Below, piece by piece: positions 33,584 through 34,622 of a DNA stretch of 64,000 nucleotides; positions within the stretch are counted from its first letter, which is position 1; the number at the start of each line of letters is the position of its first letter. The translations under genes were made by a program, and so were the position numbers. The notes under the pieces were generated by a model. The model saw nothing but the letters and a program-made list of their open reading frames with translations. It ran no database searches and was not told the origin of the DNA. The stretch is from Peptococcaceae bacterium BRH_c4b (GTDB taxonomy: Bacteria; Bacillota; Desulfotomaculia; Desulfotomaculales; Desulfocucumaceae): positions 62,001-126,000 of the forward strand of contig LADO01000017.1 of assembly GCA_000961595.1 (NCBI GenBank), written 5' to 3'.

Positions 33584-33740
33584 GTTGTTTATGATTTGCT
33601 GGGTTGGTCAACCCGGAAAAACAGGTACATCTATTAAATATAATATTGTAGTATGGTTCGGGGTTTTTCATCGGTATATTTCATGTTATTATGAGGAATG
33701 GCCGGAGTTACAATATTTACAAAATGGAGGGTTATAATAG

Positions 33741-34013
33741 CTTTGTGAACCTCCTCCGGGACAAGCCCGGAGGCTTCTCCACAAAGGTTTCTCATTTCAA
33801 TGAGAGCTGCCATACCAAAGCAAGGTCTTACGCTCCCTCGTGAGCTACAGCACTGCTTTCGCAGCCTTGGCCCGGTCCATGGGCATCTACTACTTTGCCA
33901 TAGTGGCTACGTAGATACGTGCTTTCTTCAAAAGCACCAATCTCTTTCGGGAATCAGTTTTACGCAGCAGCCCATTGATCTGCTGCAACCCCATACTGAT
34001 TGTCAAAGAGCAC
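33741..34013 (-). ncRNA. Candidate structured RNA of about 270 nt (omega-RNA/HEARO-like)
   Basis: Starting about 7 nt after a good -10 box, the transcript would fold into many stems, each checked base by base: CTCTTT/AAAGAG, inside it ATCAGT/ACTGAT, inside it GCAGCAG/CTGCTGC; then GTGCTTT/AAAGCAC; ATCTAC/GTAGAT enclosing GCCA/TGGC; GCCC/GGGC; CTGC-GAAA-GCAG with a GNRA loop; GCTC/GAGC; CTCAT/ATGAG; and the 3' CTTTGTG/CACAAAG plus CCTCCGGG/CCCGGAGG stem. No ORF with a ribosome site is present. The density of nested stems is far above chance. Whether it guides a nuclease, or is another large ncRNA class, cannot be told here. Confidence 0.6.
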
Positions 34014-34019
34014 AGGAAA

Positions 34020-34048
34020 ATTATATCATGCAAACAGGTGTTTGTGAA
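34020..34048 (-). promoter_or_regulatory. Sigma-A-type promoter for the structured RNA
   Basis: On the minus strand TTCACA (34048-34043) and a perfect TATAAT (34025-34020) are separated by exactly 17 nt. Transcription would start near 34013 and run into the stem-rich region. It points away from lspA. Confidence 0.7.
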
Positions 34049-34148
34049 GGGCATTTATCGACCTACGGGCGATGCCTCTTTCATCCTACGGCTCAAGGCC
34101 GTAGGTTTTCAGAGGCGGAATTCTATAAAAATATGCGGGGGGCTGACA

Positions 34149-34622
34149 TTGACATTAATATTTACCATCATCATTACCATGTTAGCGGACCAGTTAAGTA
34201 AATTTATAGTTCAGCGAACCATGGAACTGGGGCAGTCCGTGCCTGTGGTTAAAGACGTATTTCACCTTACCTATATATTGAATCCCGGGGCGGCTTTCGG
34301 CCTGCTGGCCAACCGTACCGTTTTTTTTGTGGTGACTACACTGTTAGTGGTTATAGCTGTAACTATTTACCATATTAAATCCGGTCAGAAGAGGGGCGCC
34401 CAACCCGTTGCCCTGGGCTTGCTGATGGGGGGGGCGCTGGGCAACCTTGTGGACCGCATACGCTACGGCAAAGTGGTTGATTTTTTCGATTTCAGGGTCT
34501 GGCCTGTATTTAACCTGGCGGATACCGCCATTGTTACCGGGGCGGGTTTGCTGGTGCTGATCCTATGGTCTTATGAAAAAAAGAAATCTGAGGATAAGGT
34601 TGATCCCGATGCAAACCACTAG
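34149..34622 (+). CDS. lspA: Lipoprotein signal peptidase (signal peptidase II)
   Basis: Cleaves the signal peptide of prolipoproteins after the Cys is lipidated; integral membrane aspartyl protease. The family usually has 150-165 residues. The frame opens at 33975, but the TTG at 34149, 6 nt after GGGGGG, gives 157 residues and starts just before the first membrane span (LADQLSKFIVQR). The catalytic Asp lies in FNLADTAIV near 130 and the conserved NPGAAFGLL and GNLVDRIRYGKVVDF precede it. Four membrane helices. The left end of the RNA element lies 33 bp upstream, so the normal promoter may have been changed. It overlaps rluD by 14 nt. Confidence 0.92.
   Translation: MTLIFTIIITMLADQLSKFIVQRTMELGQSVPVVKDVFHLTYILNPGAAFGLLANRTVFFVVTTLLVVIAVTIYHIKSGQKRGAQPVALGLLMGGALGNLVDRIRYGKVVDFFDFRVWPVFNLADTAIVTGAGLLVLILWSYEKKKSEDKVDPDANH

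Follow-up and report, generated by a model that had tools for sequence, protein, structure and literature searches.

Gene-less IS200/IS605-type elements with a TnpB omegaRNA and a conserved leader RNA of boxA-like start in Bacillota

The guide RNAs of TnpB normally derive from the mRNA of tnpB itself, and orphan or standalone omegaRNAs, together with palindrome-associated transposable elements, are gene-less IS605-type relatives with similar ends. The omegaRNA of HEARO/IscB is also a transposon-borne guide RNA, with the guide at its 5' end. To our knowledge, a conserved leader common to several families of gene-less elements has not been described before. In the TnpB omegaRNAs of IS200/IS605, the scaffold lies directly 3' of tnpB and is accompanied by a right-end (RE) hairpin, a guide derived from the flank and a TTTAT-like TAM; TnpB processes its own mRNA into omegaRNA (PMC10278001). 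The closest precedent for the leader characterized below is the boxA found in front of CRISPR arrays (Stringer et al., as cited in PMC7862264), where about 10-fold more pre-crRNA is found with boxA (PMC7862264).

Here we describe an element in the window, a 64,000-nucleotide stretch of DNA from Peptococcaceae bacterium BRH_c4b, that resembles the IS200/IS605 omegaRNA arrangement in scaffold, RE hairpin, presumed guide and TAM, and differs in having neither tnpA nor tnpB, its own promoter, and a further structured segment termed module X (Table 1). A preliminary description had drawn attention to a structured unit at 33741-34116; the element is real, and alignment of copies refines its bounds to 34124-33745, positions from 33744 downwards being host flank, which holds the presumed guide. 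The proposal made there, of a non-autonomous omega-RNA element of the IS200/IS605 superfamily, was borne out by tnpA-tnpB parents with the same left end (LE) and the same RE omegaRNA, by dispersed copies with different flanks and by a relative without the insert, and we regard this identity as almost certain. A genome search of the kind it suggested recovered four full copies, including that in the window (the others on contigs C65, C62 and C25, at 98%, 97% and 88% identity), and on C14 the 3' part only, 90% identical; a search of 100 relatives yielded about 20 more copies that are nearly full-length, along with numerous partial ones.

Alignment of copies with their flanks placed TTTAT before the left end in 18 of the 20 copies having that end intact, and TTCAC at the right end in all but a few, followed by unrelated sequence that differs in every copy. 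As in IS200/IS605, there is thus a fixed short target 5' of LE without target duplication, amid otherwise varying flanks, and the subterminal hairpins and ends are common to an autonomous element. The strong palindromes reported at both ends correspond to the LE hairpin (34105-34085) and the RE hairpin (about 33774-33751), and the minus-strand promoter, TTCACA (34048-34043) and TATAAT (34025-34020) separated by 17 nt, is present on reading the sequence. Shorter derivatives (L052:1331-1512, L053:1538-1725 and L066:933-1171) have the LE hairpin fused directly to the omegaRNA, with neither promoter nor X. No tRNA or tmRNA was found, and there was no match in plasmid records or, by exact pattern, in viral contigs.

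Table 1. Features of the element and its surroundings, in window coordinates
Feature	Position	Strand	Basis
Non-autonomous IS200/IS605-type element, 380 bp	33745..34124	-	Own-genome copies and relatives; ends from alignment
TTTAT target site and presumed TAM, host DNA immediately 5' of the element	34125..34129	-	Copy alignment; same in most tnpB parents
LE subterminal hairpin, CCTACGGCCTTGAGCCGTAGG	34085..34105	-	Covaries across copies; also in tnpA-tnpB parents
Promoter, TTCACA-17-TATAAT	34020..34048	-	Sequence; conserved stretch 34119-34019 also in parents, there preceding tnpA
Module X, conserved structured leader RNA of about 78 nt at predicted transcript 5' end	33936..34013	-	Covariance models R1/R2; covariation; absent from parents
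boxA-like motif within X, GCTCTTTGACAATCA	33997..34011	-	Matrix from rrn leader/spacer boxA
omegaRNA scaffold of TnpB family (last ~176 nt)	33745..33920	-	Up to 90% identity to region directly 3' of tnpB in parents; covariation
RE hairpin; element terminus ...GGTTCAC	33751..33774	-	Copy alignment; covariation
Presumed guide, first ~20 nt of host flank, AAAGCTATTATAACCCTCCA	33725..33744	-	Analogy with TnpB omegaRNAs; different in every copy
lspA, neighbouring gene	34153..34622	+	PF01252 match; probable TTG start at about 34153, RBS GGGGGG just upstream; comparison with G001

The parents (genome G099, locus L050, and also L035, L051, L057, L058 and L059) share a stretch matching the LE hairpin and promoter of the window (34119-34019, or part of it), after which comes a Y1-type tnpA or its remnant, with an intact reading frame in L059. 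Where the locus is long enough, tnpA is followed by tnpB, having OrfB_IS605 and Cas12f1-like_TNB domains, and immediately 3' of tnpB lies a stretch matching window positions 33920-33745 or 33894-33745. Given these matches on either side, the window element is a parent that lacks tnpA-tnpB, their position being taken by about 100 nt of different sequence. The 3' part of the element is identified as omegaRNA by homology with the RNA that the tnpB 3' end encodes: it follows the tnpB stop, carries the RE hairpin and covaries; this position and the covariation also rule out a coding remnant for the omegaRNA part. In L050, L051 and L059 the tnpA start lies only about 8-12 nt past the -10 box, suggesting a leaderless tnpA mRNA. 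With its omegaRNA 3' of tnpB and its guide at the 3' end, the element is, judged by sequence, on the TnpB side and not that of HEARO/IscB; the HEARO model, named for checking in the preliminary description, was unmatched in an Rfam search in which no family reached its gathering score in the window, module X included. A CRISPR-DR29 match at the RE hairpin scored 20 bits, below the cut-off of 39, and was dismissed as chance.

Within the genome itself, a tnpB of the window family (family A, below) occurs on C14, directly 5' of the 90%-identical omegaRNA; this contig begins at tnpB, and among several Y1 genes in the genome none is tied to family A ends. The family A TnpB (C14 type; L012:2-1234, also L050 and L061) has G at the expected position of the RuvC-II glutamate (IYIGNPEG), where the best-matching solved relative has glutamate. 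Its cutting activity is uncertain because the usual glutamate is absent, and it may be either a RuvC-II-rearranged or an impaired nuclease; activity has been found in a TnpB whose RuvC-II site is rearranged (PMC10278001). Action of TnpB in trans in BRH_c4b would be plausible, if weakened by the missing glutamate.

The element lies just upstream of lspA, as had been stated, and in an orientation antisense to that gene, a point missed earlier. In a same-genus genome, G001, the lspA upstream region lacks the insert and runs into a similar RBS and start; at its degree of divergence, too great for base-exact joining, it does not amount to an exact empty site of the kind suggested for checking. By eye, a TATAAT near 33733 on the plus strand is the likely lspA promoter, and comparison with the uninterrupted region of G001 places the element between this promoter and the lspA RBS. 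The guide would then be copied from the lspA promoter region.

RNA folding of 34016-33741 gave -105.5 kcal/mol (z = -3.96 against shuffles), and the opposite strand was also stable (z = -5.37), so that energy alone cannot assign the strand; strand and structure are assigned from covariation, from the promoter and from homology with the tnpB 3' end. Covariation, whose lack in homologues had been named as grounds for rejecting a structured RNA, was found in X, the LE hairpin and the omegaRNA. Three nested stems listed previously are exact (CTCTTT 34010-34005 with AAAGAG 33947-33942; AATCAGT 34001-33995 with ACTGATT 33958-33952; TGCAGCAG 33987-33980 with CTGCTGCG 33970-33963), and here the original reading of the whole unit as omega-RNA divides: it stands for the 3' part, and the three stems constitute the separate module X.

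Module X occupies the place of tnpA-tnpB directly downstream of the promoter, and its absence from the tnpB parents examined rules it out as part of the parent element. Over 29 sequences, 96.7% of pair cells hold standard pairs and 15 of the 22 pairs show double-sided changes; cells with such changes number 85, against 18.6 +/- 3.7 in shuffles that ignore relatedness and at most 14 with the partner slid, in an alignment fitted to the covariance model and hence biased towards structure. A simple, model-free parse returned the same P2 series (AATCAGT/ACTGATT, AACTGAT/ATCAGTT, AATCGGT/ACCGATT, TGGACAT/ATGTTCA and TGAAGAT/ATCTTCA), which was reached in 0 of 5000 shuffles. X also carries the invariant unpaired stretches GG.TTG and GTAAAA, and we hold with high confidence that it is a conserved functional RNA.

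Covariance models R1 and R2 located X in 15-16 of 113 genomes of the order or class and in 11-13 of about 400 genomes drawn from the phylum. Gene-less elements carrying it fall into at least seven families across Bacillota, and probably eleven, which are otherwise unlike one another in ends and omegaRNA bodies: those of the window (A), contig C42 of the same genome (B), G015 with nine X hits (C), G280 (D), G030 (E), G383 (F) and G405 (G), while families H-K (G220, G299, G452 and G280) are each represented by a single weaker hit. A recurrent layout comprises an end hairpin, TATAAT, X within 5-11 nt of this -10 box (in six of seven families), other RNA spanning 130-250 nt and a right-end hairpin with terminus TTCAC, GTCAC, TGTCA or similar. 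The longest sense frame opened by ATG in the interval from X to 260 nt beyond it measures 5-89 aa. For families B and D both LE and body, and for C the body, have matches among tnpB-bearing elements of the same genome; overall, families A-D match different tnpB-bearing elements in LE, body or both, the match of E is weak, and the same comparison found no tnpB-bearing partner for F and G. The TnpBs of the A and B partners (C14 and C1 of the window's genome) are only 27% identical, and in pairwise comparisons among families A-G X aligns at z 5-14, against values mostly below 3 for LE and body. In genomes searched for both, no X hit fell within 5 kb of a TnpB zinc-domain hit.

BLAST further detected the X segment alone at L055, L056, L064, L065 and L013, with copies lacking a recognisable left end or omegaRNA at L055:2763-2840 (97% identical over 69 nt), L056:1067-1146 and L064:2185-2266. 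At L163 (G034:C19:176665-176741), an X-like fold with neither boxA nor recognisable omegaRNA is followed directly by a hairpin like an intrinsic terminator, upstream of a pdxS-like start; this is possibly a domesticated or decayed copy. At L128 (G086:C1:3254721-3254783), a relative of X is now an almost perfect hairpin (TATAGGATTGCAGCAGGCCAATGGGCTGCTGCAATCCTATA).

The 5' end of X reads approximately GYTCYTTGAMAACT, sharing the YYTTGAAAACT core of the rRNA leader boxA of nut/rrn anti-termination, whereas X itself is no rrn leader and surrounds the motif with P1-P3. Leaders and spacers of rrn operons in the same genome and two relatives contain GGTCCTTGAAAACTAAACAG and close variants, and GTTCTTTGACAAC follows the 16S gene in G405. 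In each of the seven families A-G, a matrix built on only five rrn sites, and hence rough, finds its match in X at an identical offset. Shuffles as good numbered 0 of 2000 for B, D, E, F and G and 13-14 of 2000 for A and C (13 for the window copy), in which agreement with the rrn boxA of related genomes is modest (only fair matches, of 10.3 and 9.1 bits). X is not simply a copied rrn leader, the 16S leader of this genome having boxA but not the X fold. It resembles the CRISPR-array case in that an untranslated guide-RNA transcript would open with a boxA-like signal, and differs in that this boxA sits inside a covarying fold, in transposons and in Bacillota.

A boxA in untranslated RNA points to Nus-factor anti-termination, which would account for the presence of X in gene-less elements and its absence from the examined parents, since parent transcripts are translated; on balance, and from sequence comparison, we lean towards X being an anti-termination leader acting through boxA. 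NusB-S10 is thought to bind single-stranded boxA. The predicted fold pairs the 5' part of boxA in P1 and its 3' part in P2, so X would have to open or be bound co-transcriptionally, which is the main difficulty for a boxA role. Also counting against anti-termination, Rho termination is less important in many Bacillota (PMC12691694). The explanation preferred below is further weakened by the few X copies that lack a recognisable omegaRNA (L055, L056, L064 and L163), by the shorter mini-elements devoid of X (L052, L053 and L066), by the only fair boxA matches of families A and C and by the glutamate missing from the family A TnpB. The literature searched yielded no paper naming both TnpB and boxA.

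The location of P1 at or near the predicted transcription start, its covariation and the close spacing of the -10 box in six of seven families would also suit a 5' stability cap, in which a closed 5'-terminal stem P1 with P2/P3 shields untranslated RNA from 5' exonucleases of the RNase J type and the boxA-like sequence is incidental; we consider this unlikely, as a generic cap would require neither the invariant unpaired GG.TTG and GTAAAA nor boxA matches whose offset stays constant between unrelated families. About as unlikely is a put-like anti-terminator, or another RNA that binds RNA polymerase, a NusG paralogue or a different host protein directly, without NusB-S10: position at +1 and a complex fold with invariant internal loops agree with it, but the boxA match to rrn leaders is left unexplained. 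HK022 put is a leader of this directly binding kind and counts in its favour. So does the LoaP hairpin (PMC12691694). More doubtful still is an extra omegaRNA domain in contact with TnpB or standing in for some function of the tnpB mRNA, a region of which can influence TnpB (PMC10278001); X and omegaRNA are joined in one presumed transcript, yet X is missing from the tnpB-bearing parents, and is common to RNAs of such dissimilar TnpBs as those of the A and B partners, and TnpB trims off 5' parts. That X is a selfish passenger with no role, spread by recombination between mini-elements, might be read from the near-identical L055 copy in unrelated flanks and is very improbable, given that double-sided changes across Bacillota show selection on its fold and that in mini-elements it is always placed just after the promoter.

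The explanation we prefer, and judge probable as a whole, is a gene-less but mobilisable derivative of an IS605-type (tnpA + tnpB) element that makes a TnpB omegaRNA on its own, with X as a boxA-type leader. RNA polymerase would start at the LE promoter, at about 34013, and transcribe in order X, the omegaRNA scaffold, the RE hairpin and flanking DNA, the first ~20 nt of flank providing the guide. Having replaced tnpA-tnpB, X would most likely serve as a boxA-type anti-termination or RNA-chaperone leader (NusB-S10-NusA-NusG, as on rRNA), keeping the polymerase processive and the RNA correctly folded on a ribosome-free transcript. TnpB supplied in trans would trim the 5' part, X included, and the TnpB-RNA complex would cut chromosomes from which the element has been lost (TTTAT plus guide), favouring its retention. 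An inserted copy would be spared because the RE, TTCAC, is not a TAM; at the occupied lspA site, TTCAC stands before the guide sequence in place of TTTAT, so cutting is not expected.

Many elements have lost their genes and retain guide RNA and ends, with one and the same leader preceding unrelated guide RNAs, and covariance model R2 provides a testable marker for orphan guide-RNA elements missed by gene searches. Should X prove to be an anti-terminator, the shared problem of untranslated guide transcripts would have been dealt with by the same host machinery in CRISPR arrays and in orphan omegaRNAs. More tentatively, X may constitute a novel cis-acting RNA class of structured anti-terminators with a boxA, shared or captured by gene-less guide-RNA transposons of many TnpB families, and orphan guide RNAs may represent a general, actively maintained way of life in Bacillota and not products of decay.
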